From the IMG/VR virus record IMGVR_UViG_3300021356_000200, positions 1 through 21,293 of that record: a DNA stretch of 21,293 bases, one strand, 5' to 3'. Of the stretch, positions 4,473 through 13,726 are shown piece after piece (within the stretch, counting starts at the first letter, position 1; the number at the start of each line of letters is the position of its first letter). Made by a program: the position numbers and the translations under genes. The notes under the pieces were generated by a model. It saw only the letters and a list, made by a program, of their open reading frames with translations, was not told the origin of the DNA and made no database searches. This DNA is from a virus.

Positions 4473-6203
4473 TTATCCATTTTCAGCAATTCGTTTTGCC
4501 CAAGATACCATCGCTTTACCACCCCAAAGGTTGTAAGCTACATATCCCTTATCCTTCCAAGGTTCGTCTTTGTATTCATCCGAAATAACCGCGTTTTCTT
4601 CGTGGCGACTTAAAAAACTATGAACGCGCTTCACTACATCTAAAGAAAGGGGTTCGCGATTTGCGATTTGGTTTGCACGAATCCACCCAATATTTGTTCC
4701 GCCTTGTACTACATCGCGACCGTATTTTTCGCGCCATTCTAACATTCGCTTTGCATTGTTTGTGGCGCCTTGTGGATAATTCGAATAACTTTCAGCCTTT
4801 AAACTTTTTTTTTCTTCTTCTTCATCTTCAACCGGTTCCGGTTTTGGTAAATCAATCGGATCACCAACCAAATCAATATCCCCTTCAAGCGGAATTAAAT
4901 TGGCAGGAACGAAATAACTGTTCATTTGTTCGTTTTCTTCATCAATACCGTAATTCATTACATCACGTTTTTCGTTTGGCGTAATCCACCAAGCGTTGTA
5001 AAGCTGATTAACGACCTTTTCGGTTTCTTCTTGCATTTCAGGAATCGAAGTAAAGTCGTATTCAACACAAATTTTATCACCGTATTTAGGCGATAACCAA
5101 CGGTTCAATTCGTCTTGAATTTTCATTAATTCAGGAATAACCGCCATTTGATAAAGCGCTTTTTTAGCTTCCTTCATATTGTTGTATGTAGAAGCATCGG
5201 TATTGTTTAGAAGCTGAACCGGTACACCATAAATATTACAAAGGTCTTTAACCGAAGCATTGTATTGTTCGATCAGCGATAAATCTGAAGCTGACAATCC
5301 GAAGTTAATCCACGATAGCTTTTTAGGTGTGATTAAAACATCCCCCGCATTGGTTGAACCTTGGTGTTGTTTTCTAAACTTATCTTTTAATTGTTGCGCT
5401 TGTACTTCATTAATATCGCCTTCTTCAGACATTAAGATACCACGGGCAGTTTGGTTTTGTAAATACTTAACACCAGTTGTAACGGCTTCATTGTTTGTTG
5501 TAAGTGATCTAAATCCTGCACGAAGCGGCGATTGACCGTAAAGGTGTGAACCAGTACCATCGTAATAAGGATTAAAATCTTTGATATGGCAAATACAATC
5601 AGCCGGCATATCGTAAGTTCCGTTATACTCTAAGCGATACTTTGAAACCGGTTCCATTATTCCATTCGAAATAATTTCCATAACCTGCGAAGGCATAACA
5701 TAAAGTTCGGTGTATTTTCCCGCCTTTAATCCAGTATCAGGTGCAATCCCGTAAATATATCCGTTACCGGTTAGCTTACGGAACGCGATCAGTTCAGAAA
5801 TCCACGATGAATAAGATTGTGCTGAATTAGGTTGTTCTAGTAGCATTTGAAGTTCATGCCCTTCTAATTCAACAAGCGCGTTCTTTTTAATCAGTTGCGA
5901 CTTATACAATGCAGTTGGATCGGAAACACCGGATTGCATTGCTTTGTATCTTTTGTATTCGCTTTCCTTAGTCTTTTCGTAAACTGTAAACGGTATCGTT
6001 GTCGCCGCCTTAGTAATAATATTGATCAACGAATAAATCGTTGCGTTCTTGCGATAACCTTCAGTAATGTAATTGTCATCGTTTTCGGTATTCCAAAGAA
6101 CAGAATGCCCAAGGTGATTGTAAATTGCTTTGTTATATTCAGCCGCCGTTTGTGTGGCGTTCTTGGTTAGTATATTTCGGAACCGATCCAGTATTGAAGC
6201 CAT
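4473..6203 (-). CDS. Portal protein, HK97 family, with an extra C-terminal domain
   Basis: Residues 1 to about 435 form the portal: RKNATIYSLINIITKAATTI (51-70), the GNGYIYGI segment near 146, NAGDVLITPKKLSWINFGLS (285-304) and the IYGVPVQLLNN-STYNNMKEAKKAL region (324-350). It forms the dodecameric channel at the head vertex and docks the terminase. After an acidic, proline-rich linker (451-466) there is a second domain, about 474-576, with NNAKRMLEWREKYGR, GWIRANQIANREPLS, VHSFLSRHE and YVAYNLWGGKAMVSWAKR. I recall this domain as stand-alone or fused in other phage head genes. At 576 aa the protein is longer than typical HK97 portals (about 400-450 aa). Confidence 0.93.
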   Translation of the reverse strand: MASILDRFRNILTKNATQTAAEYNKAIYNHLGHSVLWNTENDDNYITEGYRKNATIYSLINIITKAATTIPFTVYEKTKESEYKRYKAMQSGVSDPTALYKSQLIKKNALVELEGHELQMLLEQPNSAQSYSSWISELIAFRKLTGNGYIYGIAPDTGLKAGKYTELYVMPSQVMEIISNGIMEPVSKYRLEYNGTYDMPADCICHIKDFNPYYDGTGSHLYGQSPLRAGFRSLTTNNEAVTTGVKYLQNQTARGILMSEEGDINEVQAQQLKDKFRKQHQGSTNAGDVLITPKKLSWINFGLSASDLSLIEQYNASVKDLCNIYGVPVQLLNNTDASTYNNMKEAKKALYQMAVIPELMKIQDELNRWLSPKYGDKICVEYDFTSIPEMQEETEKVVNQLYNAWWITPNEKRDVMNYGIDEENEQMNSYFVPANLIPLEGDIDLVGDPIDLPKPEPVEDEEEEKKSLKAESYSNYPQGATNNAKRMLEWREKYGRDVVQGGTNIGWIRANQIANREPLSLDVVKRVHSFLSRHEENAVISDEYKDEPWKDKGYVAYNLWGGKAMVSWAKRIAENG

Positions 6204-7937: not shown

Positions 7938-9635
7938 TTAAAACGGTAGGTTAGATTTGATATTTTCAAATTTACGCTTTTCGACAATGATCCGTTGTTC
8001 AGCTTCATTGATATTCTTGTATGCTCCGCCATTCTTAAAATCAGGTGCAATTTTAAATACACCCTGACGACCGTTTTCTTTTCGTTTTACTTTCTGAATA
8101 TATATTTCAACGGCATCTGATCCAAGATTTGTTTCTTCACCAAGACAACGATAAACAGTCATTGCATTGTACGCCTTATTAAAGAAGTCGCTTGACCCTG
8201 AAATATCGTATGGTGTTGGAATCCGGTATTTATTATCAATAATTTCCATTTTTCGCGGGTGCGCCACAAGAAATAGATGCGTGTTTGTTTGTTGTACAAA
8301 TTGGGTAATTTCTGAAAGCATTCGCCCAACGTATGAAACATCCCGTTGCGCGGTATGATCAAGTGTATTCCAAGGGTCGATTACGCAAAGATTGATTCCT
8401 TTTTGCAAAACCAGTTCCCGAAACTTATCTAGGATTGATTGCAGGGTTAGGTTTTCAAGGTCGATCTTGACGAAGAAGAAATTATTAGCAATAAAATCCC
8501 TTGAAGCGTTTAGTTTGTCTTTGTCGCAATTAGTTTGGTTTAGCTTATTAGCGATACGTTTAATATGCCCTTCGTATGGAAATGATTCGGGTGCAAAGAA
8601 GGCAACACGAAAACCGTGCTGAAGCGACATATTGCAACAAATTTGATCAACCACATCTGACTTTCCTGAATTTGGTACACCAGTTACAACCGACCATTCA
8701 CCTTGTGATATTTTAAGGAACTGATCTGATTCACCAATACCCATTGAATAGTTTTTTATTCCGTTGTCAGAAAAGGACAAAACCGAATCCCATATATCGT
8801 GAATATTCACTACACCCTCGATAGGGAAGTTTTTAGCCGTTTTAAGCAACTTTCTTAAAGTTTCCGACCCTGAACCTACCAAGACTTCATTCGCGTCCTT
8901 AAACGCGCCGAAATCGACGTATTTGCATTTATGGTACCCAAGTCGCCTTGCAAGTTCTTTCCGAAGTGCAATTCCGGCTTCGTCGTTATCGGTACAAAGA
9001 ATGATTTCTTTTTTGTCTTTAAAGTATTCGTGGCAGTTGTCTAAATATTCCAACCGTTGATTCCCTTTAGTAGCGCCATTTGGAACTGAAACCACCGAAT
9101 AGATGCCGCTTTCGTGTAAGCTTAATGCATCCATTTCGCCTTCTACGATATAACAATGATCGGTTTCTTTGATATTGTCCAAACCATAAAAAATAAGTTC
9201 GGCGCCTGAAACCAGTTTAAAATTCTTTTCACGATCGCGGTATTTTATATTTATCAGTTTGCCGTTTCGATAGTAGTTGAAGTTGATTGTTTTTCTTTTG
9301 GCTTGAACCTGCGGCATATACTCCACCGATTCGCCAATTTTCCAATGCGAAAGCGTAGCTTCCGATATTCCACGTTTTGCGAAATATGATATTACGCGAT
9401 CGGTAACTTCTAGTTCTATTGGTGTTGGTACGAAGTAGTCCTTCTTTTCGGTTAGATTTACATTGCCCGACCAACCGCAATGGTGGCAGTTGTAAAATCC
9501 TTTTTCAATGTTTACCGAAAGGCATTTGTCTTGTTTGTTTTTTCGTTCGGGTGAACATTTAGGGCAAGTTAGTTTTTGTTCGACCATTCCCGCCTTGGGC
9601 TGAATGCCTAAATCATAAAATCCTTGTAAATCCAT
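7938..9635 (-). CDS. Primase-helicase, T7 gp4 / Twinkle type
   Basis: A 565-aa replicative primase-helicase. Order of parts: zinc-binding domain with CPKC (24-27), Cys38 and CHHC (50-53); Toprim-type primase domain with IVEGEMDAL (163-171) and LCTDNDEAG (213-221); then a RecA-like hexameric helicase with Walker A GVPNSGKS (319-326), Walker B NLCVIDPWN (415-423) and the LFLVAHPRK motif (454-462). It would unwind the fork and make primers. No separate helicase loader gene is seen, which fits this self-loading type. The start is supported by the AAACCAAAC leader 4 nt upstream of the ATG. The gene follows a nuclease gene across a 74-bp G/C-run-rich gap and precedes the packaging genes. Confidence 0.92.
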   Translation of the reverse strand: MDLQGFYDLGIQPKAGMVEQKLTCPKCSPERKNKQDKCLSVNIEKGFYNCHHCGWSGNVNLTEKKDYFVPTPIELEVTDRVISYFAKRGISEATLSHWKIGESVEYMPQVQAKRKTINFNYYRNGKLINIKYRDREKNFKLVSGAELIFYGLDNIKETDHCYIVEGEMDALSLHESGIYSVVSVPNGATKGNQRLEYLDNCHEYFKDKKEIILCTDNDEAGIALRKELARRLGYHKCKYVDFGAFKDANEVLVGSGSETLRKLLKTAKNFPIEGVVNIHDIWDSVLSFSDNGIKNYSMGIGESDQFLKISQGEWSVVTGVPNSGKSDVVDQICCNMSLQHGFRVAFFAPESFPYEGHIKRIANKLNQTNCDKDKLNASRDFIANNFFFVKIDLENLTLQSILDKFRELVLQKGINLCVIDPWNTLDHTAQRDVSYVGRMLSEITQFVQQTNTHLFLVAHPRKMEIIDNKYRIPTPYDISGSSDFFNKAYNAMTVYRCLGEETNLGSDAVEIYIQKVKRKENGRQGVFKIAPDFKNGGAYKNINEAEQRIIVEKRKFENIKSNLPF

Positions 9636-9709: not shown

Positions 9710-10246
9710 TTATTTGAATATAATTATTTCTTTTAGTTCTTCAATAGAATTTATTTGAATTAAGTCTTTATTTTGTATTCCGTAGTTCGGTGCGCCTAGT
9801 GTTAATTCTGATCCATCCGAACGAATAATAACATCGCCTTCTTTGTTGTAGGTGGCTTTTGCTAGAAAATCTTCTTTAGTTATAAAACCGCAAATCGTAA
9901 GCAATCGATTGTAAGTATTTAAGGCGCAAAACAAATAGTGCGTGTTCTTGTATTCAATTTGCTGACCGATTACATTATTCCAATGTTCCGGTTTTGCTTT
10001 ACTCGTTCTTCCAACCGTTTTAATATCAATCAGCTTGTTTCCGATCTGAATATCCCAACCACCATCAAAACCATCGCCTTTAGGTCGTTCTAATCCCAAA
10101 AGGTCTGCAATCATAAATTCGGCGCAAATACCAACCACTTGATTTTTTCGATTGCCGTTGAATGATTTTCGATTACCGATCTTCTTCTTATCTACATAAA
10201 CGGTAGCATCAATAATAGTCTGTTCGTGAATTTGTATAGTTATCAT
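9710..10246 (-). CDS. Putative PD-(D/E)XK nuclease, 178 aa
   Basis: The protein shows the core of the restriction-endonuclease-like fold: a helix with Glu43 (VVGICAEFMIADLLG), then Asp65 in FDGGWDIQIG and Asp74-Ile-Lys76 in KLIDIKT, the D-(X)n-DxK active site pattern. A late KNTHYLFCALNTYN strand (100-113) would complete the sheet. The start overlaps the stop of the initiator gene (ATGA), so the two are translated together. It is one of three nucleases of this fold within about 3 kb. It may process replication or recombination intermediates or degrade host DNA; the sequence does not decide. The C-terminal part (about 125-178) is not recognised. Confidence 0.7.
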   Translation of the reverse strand: MITIQIHEQTIIDATVYVDKKKIGNRKSFNGNRKNQVVGICAEFMIADLLGLERPKGDGFDGGWDIQIGNKLIDIKTVGRTSKAKPEHWNNVIGQQIEYKNTHYLFCALNTYNRLLTICGFITKEDFLAKATYNKEGDVIIRSDGSELTLGAPNYGIQNKDLIQINSIEELKEIIIFK

Positions 10247-10971
10247 AGTTCTAGGTTTTCAAATTCTTTTCCGTATCGTTCCATAAATACATCAATCCAA
10301 AGAACGCCCTGCTTATTTCGTTGGCGTAGTTTCTGAACTGTTAAAAAATTCTGCTTCCAAAAATCATCCTTACGAATTTCTTTGATTAGCAAATACAACT
10401 TGCGTGGTGATACGCCATTGATTCGGTTCAGCTTATCGATCGTGTCCAACCACTTTTCTTGTTGTGGTTTTGTTGAAGGTCGATAGCGTTCCGGAAATTG
10501 TTGTTGGATATGGTTAAAGGCGTTTAAAACAATTTCGGGGAATATTTTCTTTTTATTATTCTTATTAATCTTATTAGATATCTTATTAATCTTATTATTA
10601 TTTCTTTGATGCGGATTTTCCGGTGCCGAAATTCCGACTTCGGATTTTCCGACTTCGGATTTTCCGGTTCCCATTTTTACCAAATCCAGTAATTCAAAAT
10701 CATAAACAAAACGTGATCCATCCCGTATTTTTTTGCGCTTTAAAAAACCTGCTTTTTCTAGTTCTACTAGCCGTGTTGAAATGGAATCGCGACCATCTTT
10801 AAAATGATTTGTAATAAAATTAATTGTCATTTGGCGCCCTGCTTCGTGGCTAAAAAGCCAACAATAAAGACCGGTTGCCGCCATTGAAATACCCTTATTT
10901 CGAAAGATCGATAAAGGGATAGGAATGTACCGATCAAGACCGTGTGGTTTGATTATTACACCAATTTCCAT
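10243..10971 (-). CDS. Winged-helix replication initiator, lambda-O-like organisation
   Basis: A 242-aa protein in three parts. Residues about 14-95 form a winged helix (IPIPLSIFRNKGISMAATGL; DSISTRLVELEKAGFLKRKK), as in phage replisome organisers. Residues 100-145 are a low-complexity linker with a repeated GKSEV unit and an Asn/Lys/Ile run. Residues 146-242 are helical; DFWKQNFLTVQKLRQRNKQG (213-232) resembles the C-terminal part of other phage initiator proteins. It likely binds the origin and recruits the primase-helicase. The linker DNA carries direct repeats and an AT-rich block that look like an origin, as in lambda O. The ATG lies 4 nt after an AAACCAAAC leader, which fixes the start. 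Confidence 0.75.
   Translation of the reverse strand: MEIGVIIKPHGLDRYIPIPLSIFRNKGISMAATGLYCWLFSHEAGRQMTINFITNHFKDGRDSISTRLVELEKAGFLKRKKIRDGSRFVYDFELLDLVKMGTGKSEVGKSEVGISAPENPHQRNNNKINKISNKINKNNKKKIFPEIVLNAFNHIQQQFPERYRPSTKPQQEKWLDTIDKLNRINGVSPRKLYLLIKEIRKDDFWKQNFLTVQKLRQRNKQGVLWIDVFMERYGKEFENLEL
10542..10670. other. Candidate replication origin inside the initiator gene
   Basis: Four adjacent units of 14-15 bp lie at 10612-10625, 10626-10640, 10641-10655 and 10656-10670. Three contain CGGATTTTCCG, a small dyad (CGGA-TTT-TCCG); the second unit is degenerate. Beside them is an AT-rich block (about 10542-10609) with the 17-bp direct repeat TCTTATTAATCTTATTA at 10560-10576 and 10581-10597. Iterons next to an AT-rich unwinding region in the linker of an initiator gene is the layout of lambda ori. 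Confidence 0.5.
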
Positions 10972-10986: not shown

Positions 10987-11235
10987 TTATTCGTCAATAT
11001 ATTGTTTGATCCGATCGCAGAAAGTTCGTATTTCATTGAATATGATCAAAAAATCTTCTAGTGAAATCTTTTCGTCATCGTACAATTCAAATAAAACTTC
11101 TAACAATAGATCAAACTCCGGTTCGGTCATATTACCGGCGTACACGAACTGAATGTTCCCCGAATACGTTGAATTTTGCGTCCAACGTATGCGCTGATCA
11201 TCTTCATTCCAGTACACTTTTTTGCTTATCCACAT
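10987..11235 (-). CDS. Hypothetical acidic protein, 82 aa
   Basis: The ATG at 11235 (MWISKKVYWNEDDQRIRWTQ) is preferred; a TTG at 11274 would lengthen the overlap with the nuclease fusion gene. After a beta-rich, aromatic N-terminal half the protein becomes helical and acidic (EPEFDLLLEVLFELYDDEKI, residues about 38-57, and LEDFLIIFNEIRTFCDRIKQ). It overlaps the preceding DnaA-IV/VRR-NUC gene by 32 bp and the overlap contains a perfect DnaA box. No family is recognised. Its place between two replication genes suggests a small accessory factor. Confidence 0.6.
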   Translation of the reverse strand: MWISKKVYWNEDDQRIRWTQNSTYSGNIQFVYAGNMTEPEFDLLLEVLFELYDDEKISLEDFLIIFNEIRTFCDRIKQYIDE

Positions 11236-11881
11236 CTTTAAAATATTGGTCGATTCGTTGTTTAATGTAATCAAAATCTGCCGACCAAAACGCTTCCCAA
11301 TCTAATTCCTGCAACTTTTTTAAGCATTCCAGTTGGTTTTTGGTTGGTCTATTTGAACCATATTTTAATTCAATAGCCAAGCCATTTCGATATTTGTTAG
11401 GGTTGTAAATCATAAGATCAGGCATTCCCGATACACCGCCCAAGGTTTTAAACTTGTAGCGTTCAAACATTGATCGGCGACCTTCATTTGGAATATGCAC
11501 CACAAACGCTTCAGGATATTGCGCCTTGATATAAGCAATAACTCCGCGTTGCAATACATCTTCTTTACCTAAATACTTGTCATAAGGGTTTGCCATGATA
11601 CCTAATTTTTCATCTACCTTTCCCAAAAGTACGGTATATTTTGACCTGAAGTTTGGATCAACTTCACAAAGATTTTTGCATTGTTTAAGTGAATGCAGTA
11701 CGGTACAATGATCGTAACCCAATGTTTTACCAATAAATTCGTAGCTTAAATTCAAGTGATTACGGCAAATATCGTAGTAAACGTAACGCCCTTCAACGTA
11801 TTCCCTTTTTCTTGTTCTTCGTGATAAATCAAGGTTTAGTTCATCGCTTATAATGGTTAGAATTTGTTTTGTTAGGTTCAT
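11204..11881 (-). CDS. Fusion of DnaA domain IV with a VRR-NUC nuclease
   Basis: A 225-aa protein with two parts. Residues 1-95 resemble the DNA-binding domain IV of DnaA: a basic start (SRRTRKREYVEGRYVYYDIC, 20-39), then FIGKTLGYDHCTVLHSLKQC (49-68), which matches the DnaA signature IGxxxGxRDHTTVxHA except Arg to Tyr at 56 and Thr to Cys at 59. No AAA+ domain is present. Residues 106-225 are a VRR-NUC nuclease: HIPNEGRR (129-136), GGVSGMPDLMIYNP (148-161), AIELKYG (169-175) and PTKNQLECLKKL (179-190), giving the PD...ExK active site. It may be a nuclease addressed to DnaA boxes near the origin. It is coupled to the RecE-like gene by an ATGA overlap. Confidence 0.85.
   Translation of the reverse strand: MNLTKQILTIISDELNLDLSRRTRKREYVEGRYVYYDICRNHLNLSYEFIGKTLGYDHCTVLHSLKQCKNLCEVDPNFRSKYTVLLGKVDEKLGIMANPYDKYLGKEDVLQRGVIAYIKAQYPEAFVVHIPNEGRRSMFERYKFKTLGGVSGMPDLMIYNPNKYRNGLAIELKYGSNRPTKNQLECLKKLQELDWEAFWSADFDYIKQRIDQYFKDVDKQKSVLE
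11226..11234 (+). promoter_or_regulatory. Perfect DnaA box
   Basis: TTATCCACA, the strongest E. coli DnaA box, lies in the overlap between the DnaA-IV/VRR-NUC gene and the next gene. One other exact box, reversed (TGTGGATAA), is at 4771-4779 in the portal gene. A single exact 9-mer is not very likely by chance in 21 kb, but possible. Confidence 0.45.
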
Positions 11882-12687
11882 AGTATTTCGATTCCGTTTT
11901 TATCCTTTAATGAATCAACTCCTAGTGCAACGCCGGTGTTTACATAATGCTTCCAACGATCAAACGCCCATTGCATTTTTTCAAAACCGACTTCAATCAT
12001 TCGGTCGTTTAGTTTGCAAACGCGAACCATTGTTTCGGGGTTTCTTGGATCGTCATATTCAATATTATTCTTGACCGCAATAAACCGAAAGTTTTCTATT
12101 GGAATACCTAACACCGAACAATAAAACGCCGCCTGAACGTGGTAATTGTATTGCCAAACGTCGCGTTCAAATTCCATAACCGAACGGGTGCTTTTTACAT
12201 CTGATATCCAGTTTTCTTCGTAATTAACGCAATCGGGTCGAACCCTAACCGGTATGCCTCCAAATTCTGAATAATGCGAAAGTTCAGCTTCACCTTTACA
12301 CGAATCAACCGCTAAAGGTATAGCGTAAAATTGGCGTTCTATTTCGCGGATCACTTGAACATCTTTAAAATCTAAAATGGCACGATCACCTGCCTTTTCA
12401 ATAAGTTGCGCTTTAAGTTCTTTGTTTTCCTTTTTACGCAAGTCGCCGATTTCCGGAAGTTCGTAATAATCCGTTTCGTATTTCTTGCGCCCTTCTAATA
12501 AAAGCGTATGAATCGCGTTGCCAAATTCAAAGGCGGCTTTTGATTTATAGGTTTGCGCTAGATATTCGCGAACCGATCCCTTAAATTTCACAATGCTTTT
12601 TAATCCCGAAGCGCTAATCGATTTATGCGCGTGGTATTCCGCGTTGGTATCAAATACTTTTTTCATATCACTTAAGTTCAATGCCAT
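11878..12687 (-). CDS. RecE-like exonuclease (PDDEXK, DUF3799 type)
   Basis: Starts are possible at TTG 12702, ATG 12687 (MALNLSDMKK, used here, 269 aa) or ATG 12666, the last leaving no overlap. The protein matches the nuclease domain of RecE/exonuclease VIII: the opening YHAHKSISASGLKSIVKFKG (residues 18-37), FGNAIHTLLLEG with His60, GEAELS with Glu135, RVRPDCV with Asp152, ISDVKST with Asp163 and Lys165, then WQYNYHVQAAFY (178-189). It would resect double-stranded ends to give single strands for the Rad52-type annealing protein encoded upstream (13205-13726). Length fits the isolated nuclease domain, not full RecE. It is coupled to the next gene by ATGA. Confidence 0.88.
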   Translation of the reverse strand: MALNLSDMKKVFDTNAEYHAHKSISASGLKSIVKFKGSVREYLAQTYKSKAAFEFGNAIHTLLLEGRKKYETDYYELPEIGDLRKKENKELKAQLIEKAGDRAILDFKDVQVIREIERQFYAIPLAVDSCKGEAELSHYSEFGGIPVRVRPDCVNYEENWISDVKSTRSVMEFERDVWQYNYHVQAAFYCSVLGIPIENFRFIAVKNNIEYDDPRNPETMVRVCKLNDRMIEVGFEKMQWAFDRWKHYVNTGVALGVDSLKDKNGIEIL

Positions 12688-12859
12688 GGATTGATAATTC
12701 AACCTTTAAAGCTTTGTTTTCTTTTTTTACTTTGTTTAGTTCACCGTAAACCATCTGAAGTTCATTATGGCATTTCATAAGGTTTTCTTTTAAGGCGTAA
12801 ATCTGCGCTTTCATAAACGCCGGATCATCGTGTTTAGTATCGTCAATAATAATTGGCAT
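12668..12859 (-). CDS. Small coiled-coil protein, 63 aa
   Basis: The start is supported by an AAACCAAAC leader 4 nt upstream. After MPIIIDDTKHDDPAF the protein is one long helix with heptad-like leucines and alternating charge (MKAQIYALKENLMKCHNELQ and VYGELNKVKKENKALKVELS), so it probably dimerises. The 3' end overlaps the RecE-like gene if that starts at 12687. It follows a UUCG terminator, so it begins a new transcription or translation unit inside the recombination cluster. Family unknown; an accessory factor for the recombination genes is possible. Confidence 0.65.
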   Translation of the reverse strand: MPIIIDDTKHDDPAFMKAQIYALKENLMKCHNELQMVYGELNKVKKENKALKVELSIHGIELK

Positions 12860-12902: not shown

Positions 12903-13187
12903 TTAAAATGGTAAATCTGAATCGTCATCTGAAGCGCTTGCATTGTCTGTTTGTGCTTCAGGAACGAATGTATCGATCACAAAATTTGGTGATCCATCGC
13001 GACCTTTTAAGATCGAAAACTTAATCTGCTTATCACCTTTGTATTCGGTGAATAATTCAACGATTTCCGGTTTCTTAAAAAAGTCCATTAATTGACGTGG
13101 TGTAAATACACCGTTGCCAATTACAAAGTCAGGTGCGCCATCGCGCGGTGGGAATGATCTTATCCCTTCAACGTAAATAGTTGCCAT
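12903..13187 (-). CDS. Small SSB-like single-strand DNA-binding protein, 94 aa
   Basis: The protein begins MATIYVEGIRSFPPRDGAPD and has a compact beta-rich core (FVIGNGVFTPRQLMDFF; KQIKFSILKGRDGSPNFVID). After a short linker it ends in SASDDDSDLPF, the acidic tip that in SSB proteins binds partner enzymes. At 94 aa it is shorter than bacterial SSB (about 170 aa), and the classical SSB fold motifs are not obvious, so it is a phage-type SSB analogue. It lies between the Rad52-type annealing protein and the exonuclease, where an SSB is expected. It should coat single strands in replication and recombination. The start has an A-rich leader with no Shine-Dalgarno. Confidence 0.72.
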   Translation of the reverse strand: MATIYVEGIRSFPPRDGAPDFVIGNGVFTPRQLMDFFKKPEIVELFTEYKGDKQIKFSILKGRDGSPNFVIDTFVPEAQTDNASASDDDSDLPF

Positions 13188-13204: not shown

Positions 13205-13726
13205 TTAGCGTTTAGTGTTTTTGCGCTTACCCCATTCAAAGCGGATAGCATTGCCATCGTGGGCGCCTAAATAGGTAAGCTTGTTATCTTCAAACTCTGA
13301 ATGCCACTTCCAGTTTCGAAGCTTGTATTGGAATATTTTACTGTTTGCACGTTCTTCGTTGGTTAGCTTAACAAATATAAGCGGATAGTCGTACAATTCG
13401 CGACCGATCCCCCAATTAAAACCGGCGCGTTTAAAAGCATCTGAAGCGGCACCCTTTACTGCTTCGGTATTTGATTCGGTACCCACATCCATTTTTGAAA
13501 CCCAAGTTCCCTTGTCGCGATCCCAAATGGATATAATACAATAATTGTTGCCATCAATGCTTTTGTGTTCCCTTTTCCAGTTTATTTCCCCGACGACTTC
13601 ATCAAGTCGTTTCATATCCGCACGGGCATCTTTGTATGGTAAAATGATTGCGCCCTTTGCGTTTACGGATTGTACACGAAATTCGATTTCGTCAATAGTT
13701 AGCGGTGTGGTTAATGTTTTCTTCAT
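13205..13726 (-). CDS. Rad52-type single-strand annealing protein
   Basis: A 173-aa member of the Rad52/Rad22 superfamily of phage recombinases (Sak-like). The signature runs from LPYKDARADMKRLDEVVG (29-46) and NWKREHKSIDGNNYCIIS (49-66) to EAVKGAASDAFKRAGFNWGI (88-107) and GRELYD (108-113). It pairs complementary single strands made by the RecE-like exonuclease, so the genes at 11878-13726 form an exonuclease/annealase recombination system with an SSB-like partner. Its start overlaps the stop of the HTH gene (ATGA). The C-terminal tail is basic (WGKRKNTKR), which may help bind DNA. Confidence 0.88.
   Translation of the reverse strand: MKKTLTTPLTIDEIEFRVQSVNAKGAIILPYKDARADMKRLDEVVGEINWKREHKSIDGNNYCIISIWDRDKGTWVSKMDVGTESNTEAVKGAASDAFKRAGFNWGIGRELYDYPLIFVKLTNEERANSKIFQYKLRNWKWHSEFEDNKLTYLGAHDGNAIRFEWGKRKNTKR

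Follow-up and report, generated by a model that had tools for sequence, protein, structure and literature searches.

A phage protein joining a DnaA domain IV-like module to a VRR-NUC nuclease: a candidate DNA-anchored junction resolvase of a recombination and replication operon

Introduction

One open reading frame of a 21.3-kb IMG/VR virus record, the whole of which is referred to here as the window, encodes a module resembling domain IV of the initiator protein DnaA, followed by a nuclease of the VRR-NUC type. The record probably derives from a marine bacteriophage with a flavobacterial host. Why should a phage attach an origin-recognition module to a nuclease? A preliminary description of the sequence proposed that the module sends the nuclease to DnaA boxes, either at the phage's own origin or at the host oriC.

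In DnaA, base contacts are made at positions 399, 423, 432-435 and 438-439 (PMC5043019). VRR-NUC proteins that stand alone, from bacteria and phages, form dimers and cleave four-way (Holliday) junctions; linear duplex is not cut by one of them, psNUC, and FAN1 is set apart by an insertion that blocks dimerization (PMC4103454).

In this study, we examine the predicted structure and conservation of both halves of the protein, the distribution of the fusion and of its separately encoded counterparts, the surrounding genes, and the DnaA boxes and repeats of the phage. The data favor, with moderate confidence, a reading in which the fusion protein is a DNA-anchored resolvase of Holliday junctions and other branches, belonging to a Red-like recombination and replication module of the phage.

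Results

The fusion protein contains a DnaA domain IV-like module and a VRR-NUC nuclease

The fusion gene is read on the minus strand, from 11881 down to 11204, an orientation that the preliminary description had not given (Table 1); FIGKTLGYDHCTVLHSLKQC corresponds to residues 49-68 of its product. Residues 6-67 matched the Pfam family Bac_DnaA_C (PF08299) at 37.2 bits, above the curated cut-off of 31.5, and residues 118-194 matched VRR_NUC (PF08774) at 27.9 bits, above the cut-off of 23.8. An AlphaFold2 model, built from a deep alignment with 60 related sequences, had a mean pLDDT of 91.9 and a pTM of 0.65, the mutual placement of the two domains being poorly defined. When the model was compared with known structures, residues 2-94 aligned with DnaA domain IV of 3PVP (Z 16.4, rmsd 1.4, 93 residues aligned) and 1J1V (Z 15.4). 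The nuclease part, residues 102-221, matched 4QBL best (Z 13.8), ahead of archaeal Hjc and the RecU Holliday-junction resolvases. The NCBIfam equivalog model for DnaA, TIGR00362, aligned through its C-terminus alone, with 39.1 bits vs. 343.9, and the fusion protein is therefore without AAA+ domain III. The domain assignments of the preliminary description are thus upheld: the domain IV match is significant, the model has the domain IV helix-turn-helix fold, and the AAA+ domain is indeed absent.

Table 1. Features of the window around the fusion gene
Feature	Position	Strand	Basis or remark
Fusion protein, DnaA domain IV-like module plus VRR-NUC nuclease	11204..11881	-	225 aa, ATG at 11881
DnaA domain IV-like module, residues 2-94	11600..11878	-	Pfam; fold match to 3PVP and 1J1V
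Helix 58-74 of signature DHCTVLH	11660..11710	-	alignment, model; contact positions from PMC5043019
VRR-NUC PD-(D/E)XK domain, residues 102-221	11219..11578	-	Pfam; fold match to 4QBL
E107	11561-11563	-	conservation
Active-site stretch with D155 and E171-x-K173	11363..11419	-	conservation; K/Q pair described in PMC4103454
Q183	11333-11335	-	after the E171-x-K173 stretch
Rad52/Erf-like single-strand annealing protein	13205..13726	-	family matches
Small protein ending DSDLPF (SSB-type acidic tip)	12903..13187	-	sequence; relatives in this slot include DUF3127/SSB
RecE/exonuclease VIII-like nuclease (DUF3799)	11878..12702	-	family matches
Small conserved protein (MWISKK...), function unassigned	10987..11235	-	conserved slot
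Replication initiator (HTH_36; DnaD/O-like)	10243..10971	-	family matches
178-aa protein, possible PD-(D/E)XK-like motif (...DGGWDIQIGNKLIDIKT)	9710..10246	-	sequence
Primase-helicase	7938..9635	-	family matches
Isolated perfect TTATCCACA	11226..11234	+	at start codon of the gene after the fusion
Direct repeats, 15 nt, core CCGAAGTCGG, iterons	10632..10666	-	inside initiator gene
AT-rich repeat beside iterons	10548..10602	-	possible unwinding element

The DNA-binding half keeps the core DnaA contacts

Conservation was counted over 61 non-redundant relatives. The signature corresponds to residues 433-439 of E. coli DnaA, with D57, H58, C59, T60 and H63 aligned to D433, H434, T435, T436 and H439. 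The equivalents of R399 (R24), R407 (R32) and H434 (H58) are each present in all 61 relatives and that of T436 (T60) in 58, which argues that DNA binding is under selection, and the invariance of the three core contacts makes it probable that this half binds duplex DNA. Among the base-contact positions, 399 and 434 are invariant, and 423, 432, 433 and 435 are altered in most members; the common residues of the family are Lys at 432 (Tyr in the window), Asn at 433 and Ala at 435, and P423 is not retained.

It had been suggested in the preliminary description that changes of Arg to Tyr and of Thr to Cys in the recognition part may alter the preferred site. The departure from Thr435 is not special, given that Ala occupies this position in 53/61 relatives; what does stand out is the Cys itself, found in the window alone, and Tyr at 432 occurs in 4/61. 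Full-length DnaA proteins encoded on gut contigs also show KDHATV and RNHATV, including Ala at 435, so that the residues at 432, 433 and 435 are not, taken alone, evidence of a new target.

Median identity was 0.32 for DnaA-IV, 0.47 for the exonuclease, 0.61 for the nuclease and 0.68 for the primase, and the DnaA-IV half thus evolves fastest of the four. A special signal of co-evolution between the N- and C-terminal halves was not seen, since DnaA-IV tracks the nuclease no more closely than the exonuclease (divergence correlations of 0.55 and 0.59, respectively).

The nuclease half appears to fill the resolvase slot of the phage

The active-site residues are nearly invariant, in accordance with the profile and fold assignments of this half to VRR-NUC: E107 is present in 60/60 aligned relatives, P154-D155 in 61/61, E171 in 60/61, and K173 and Q183 in 61/61 each. 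From its position relative to Hjc, E107 would be the first acidic residue of the site. K173 and Q183 lie ten residues apart, as do K47 and Q57 of stNUC, and the beta1-beta2 linker of the model consists of a single short helix (138-146), without the two long helices of FAN1.

Other resolvases were sought in 18 large contigs of the flavophage group and in five other phages with DnaA-IV proteins. All 18 contigs carry VRR-NUC and none carries NinG or RusA, the latter having been tested on these contigs only; L037 and L039, which belong to this set, are without DnaA-IV. P12024L, an isolated flavophage whose DnaA-IV and VRR-NUC genes are not neighbors, and ctfjg026 likewise have VRR-NUC and no NinG. 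The reverse holds for tooticki6-1, Nekkels_1 and Gundel_1, in which NinG is present and VRR-NUC absent. Because the phages examined, which represent few independent lineages and were screened for some resolvase families rather than all, carry either VRR-NUC or NinG and in no case both, VRR-NUC appears to fill the slot of a branched-DNA resolvase.

Fused and split forms recur in one phage group, and an unrelated phage has an independent gene pair

A profile scan of viral contigs yielded 120 relatives, the best 80 of which were retained, giving 81 loci with the window. The survey of the domain pair in phages proposed by the preliminary description thereby found the fusion in 14 further viral loci (15 with the window) and the two domains as adjacent genes on the same strand in 59; the nuclease alone was called in the other seven, four of which end at a contig edge beside the gene. 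On the remaining three contigs (L037, L039 and L081, of 30-34 kb), DnaA-IV was not detected next to the nuclease or elsewhere and VRR-NUC is kept, which implies that a DnaA-IV anchor would be dispensable or replaceable. An assembly artifact as the source of the fusion is ruled out by its presence in the 14 other loci. Scanned from the DnaA-IV side, the nuclease is adjacent in 77 of 80 loci, and the other three stop at a contig edge. The fused relatives are only about 41-44% identical, and the split genes overlap by 4 nt or sit about 28 nt apart. The nuclease tree contains at least two switches between the fused and split states, a single origin not being rejected (p-AU 0.07).

In the podovirus ctfjg026 (MW202828), which is unrelated, a VRR-NUC gene and a DnaA-IV gene overlap, their order being reversed. 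Its VRR-NUC (43.9 bits) is barely similar to the nuclease of the window, and the pair is an independent one. A viral protein in BFVD, A0A516L0Z0 (218 aa), is 45% identical over its full length, has no recorded name or function, and is apparently the same fusion.

Several observations accompany this survey. Five loci that lie near fused clades in the tree (L033, L036, L038, L047 and L049) show a longer overlap of the two genes, 74-113 nt with the frames differing, and may represent a step between the split and fused states or else a frameshifted pair. Split DnaA-IV proteins such as those of L011, L023 and L042 end in a heptad-like tail, YNxLLLENDxLKxKIxELxxxIYxLADxE, in which one Asn is strongly conserved and which is missing from the fused proteins; the tail may form a dimerizing coiled coil, for which the statistics are weak (6/42 split DnaA-IV tails at p < 0.05) and the pattern is suggestive by eye. 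The contigs of metagenome bins yielded only five fragments of the same phage group (L088-L092), filed in Flavobacteriaceae, Gammaproteobacteria, Woesearchaeota and Rhodobiaceae bins and probably mis-binned phage contigs. Two sets of candidate phage DnaA-IV proteins were rejected: five gut "Bacteriophage sp." matches (L168, L171-L174) are full-length DnaA, with frames of 414-475 aa, and the match in Acinetobacter phage MD-2021a (L170, CAKLQH020000026) lies on a bacterial dnaA-dnaN-recF contig.

The pair occupies a conserved recombination and replication operon

The conserved gene order consists of an annealing protein (Erf/Rad52-type), an SSB-like protein, a RecE-like exonuclease, DnaA-IV plus VRR-NUC, a small protein, the initiator, a variable gene and the primase-helicase, and all neighbors with a recognizable family are phage recombination or replication genes. 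Among the window and the best 80 of 120 relatives, the DUF3799 exonuclease is directly upstream of the pair in 66/81 loci and the MWISKK... protein directly downstream of the nuclease in 71/81. The start codon of the fusion overlaps the exonuclease stop by 4 nt in the window, which may be taken as a sign of translational coupling. The MWISKK... protein has no Pfam or PHROG match and is a possible third partner. The variable slot is occupied in the window by the 178-aa protein, also without a Pfam or PHROG match, and holds different genes in other phages. No PADLOC model matched the fusion protein, and a link to a defense system was therefore not seen.

DnaA boxes are not enriched, and iterons mark the probable origin

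Across 37 phage loci and the window, 6 copies of TTATCCACA were observed vs. 6.1 expected, and 54 of TTWTNCACA vs. 70 expected, without clusters of either. Perfect boxes occur twice in the window, at 4771-4779 and 11226-11234, each of them isolated, and TTWTNCACA is absent from the place matching the latter in L001, L002 and L004. An apparent depletion of TWTNCACA and TTATCCA, seen against a third-order Markov model, disappeared once a maximal-order model and permuted controls were used, and for this reason no avoidance of boxes is claimed.

Iterons within an initiator gene resemble the origin in the lambda O gene. Most of the phages carry direct repeats of ~15 nt near nt 290-360 of this gene, their sequence differing from phage to phage; a qualifying tandem repeat was present in 23/36 initiator genes vs. 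2/64 control genes (exonuclease and primase). The iterons are a probable lambda-like origin, as judged from sequence, and suggest that replication there is served by the phage's own initiator. With boxes neither enriched nor clustered and the origin likely to lie at the iterons, the earlier proposal, in which DnaA boxes at the phage or host origin attract the nuclease, is not borne out. The DnaA-IV half may nevertheless bind some DnaA-box-like or host site.

Discussion

The reading of the fusion protein as an anchored resolvase draws on several results together: the half that carries the nuclease has the fold and active site of dimeric junction-cleaving VRR-NUC proteins; the operon places exonuclease, annealing and SSB-like genes upstream and initiator and primase downstream; the domains are kept fused or adjacent, with the nuclease almost always beside DnaA-IV; a reversed-order pair arose independently in ctfjg026; VRR-NUC and NinG are complementary; and the core DNA-contact residues are invariant. 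The case is weakened in that gene order within one phage lineage partly reflects shared ancestry. We infer that the VRR-NUC half would dimerize and introduce nicks in pairs at forks and four-way junctions, the expected leftovers of exonuclease-plus-annealing recombination, and that such cutting would debranch replicated phage DNA before packaging. The DnaA-IV half, whether fused or encoded next door, would anchor the enzyme on the duplex arms by way of a DnaA-type contact formed by the equivalents of R399, R407 and H434.

The alternatives differ in what the DnaA-IV half is taken to do. It might act mainly as a regulator of the operon or of replication at the phage's own sites, in which case the fusion would be a by-product of coupled neighboring genes and would add little to the nuclease. 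The separate genes of 59 loci, the three contigs without DnaA-IV, the NinG-using flavophages that carry DnaA-IV without VRR-NUC, the rapid divergence of this half relative to the nuclease, and the 4-nt overlap or roughly 28-nt spacing of the genes all fit this idea; it is made rather unlikely by the persistence of the fused state among such distant relatives and by the ctfjg026 pair, which argues for joint function. We also consider it unlikely that the protein is a sequence-directed junction resolvase, in which DnaA-IV picks specific phage or host sites and junctions or forks are cut there; if this were true, the origin-recognition module of DnaA would serve as a guide for a nuclease.

Recruitment to an origin can be weighed in two forms. 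Were DnaA-IV to bind the phage origin, VRR-NUC might nick or resolve DNA there to start or restart replication, and the initiator gene, which contains iterons beside an AT-rich stretch, does follow shortly downstream of the fusion gene, only one small gene separating them. However, the iterons (core CCG-N4-CGG) are unlike TTATCCACA and vary by phage while the contact residues of DnaA-IV stay the same, an initiator dedicated to this task is already encoded by the phage, and DnaA boxes are not enriched, which together leave this role improbable. Less probable still, to a degree that we regard it as very doubtful, is an anti-host factor brought by DnaA-IV to the DnaA boxes of the host oriC to block or destroy host replication. 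The invariant DnaA contact residues would permit recognition of host sites, and the NHATV and DHATV variants of the recognition helix are shared with full-length DnaA proteins, but psNUC, the nearest solved relative, leaves linear duplex uncut (PMC4103454), the phage's DnaA boxes show no clear sign of avoidance or protection, no defense-system model matched, and the conserved location is a phage recombination and replication operon. It is because the relatives keep the neighboring genes within this operon that a DNA-anchored junction cutter is likelier than a weapon against the host origin.

The anchored resolvase that we favor would be assembled from parts already known. With psNUC (4QBL), stNUC (4QBO) and saNUC (4QBN) the fusion has in common the fold, the active-site residues and the phage setting, and with psNUC the short beta1-beta2 helix; these are single-domain proteins for which junction cutting is described (PMC4103454), whereas the fusion adds a DnaA-IV domain, or an adjacent gene for one, and its cutting is predicted. 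FAN1 likewise has a C-terminal VRR-NUC after a DNA-binding domain, and differs in its helical insertion that blocks dimerization, its further domains and its flap activity, as compared to the DnaA-IV domain and short insertion of the fusion. The DNA-binding domain of FAN1 is a SAP domain. The resemblance to DnaA domain IV extends to the fold and to the retained equivalents of R399, R407, H434 and T436, in contrast to the missing domains I-III, the mostly Asn, Ala and Lys residues at 433, 435 and 432, and the loss of P423. NinG/Rap and RusA probably share with it the job of resolving branched recombination intermediates, but belong to families unrelated to VRR-NUC. Our literature search found no published description of a DnaA-IV and VRR-NUC pair, and what is new is the pairing of a VRR-NUC enzyme, here a candidate resolvase, with DnaA domain IV.

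The pairing supplies VRR-NUC nucleases with a DNA-binding partner absent from the literature searched, and a large marine phage group in which the pair can be studied. Small phage proteins that consist of DnaA domain IV alone carry the annotation "chromosomal replication initiation protein"; Gundel_1 and ctfjg026 provide examples. The gene pair and the natural fusion tie one group of these proteins to a branched-DNA nuclease in a recombination operon, which suggests that such labels mislead, and give DnaA-IV-only phage proteins a directly testable role. In ctfjg026, a second DnaA-IV gene lies directly before an SSAP_Sak annealing protein and an exonuclease (L095 11034-12721; MW202828 51033-52720), another tie of DnaA-IV to recombination genes.
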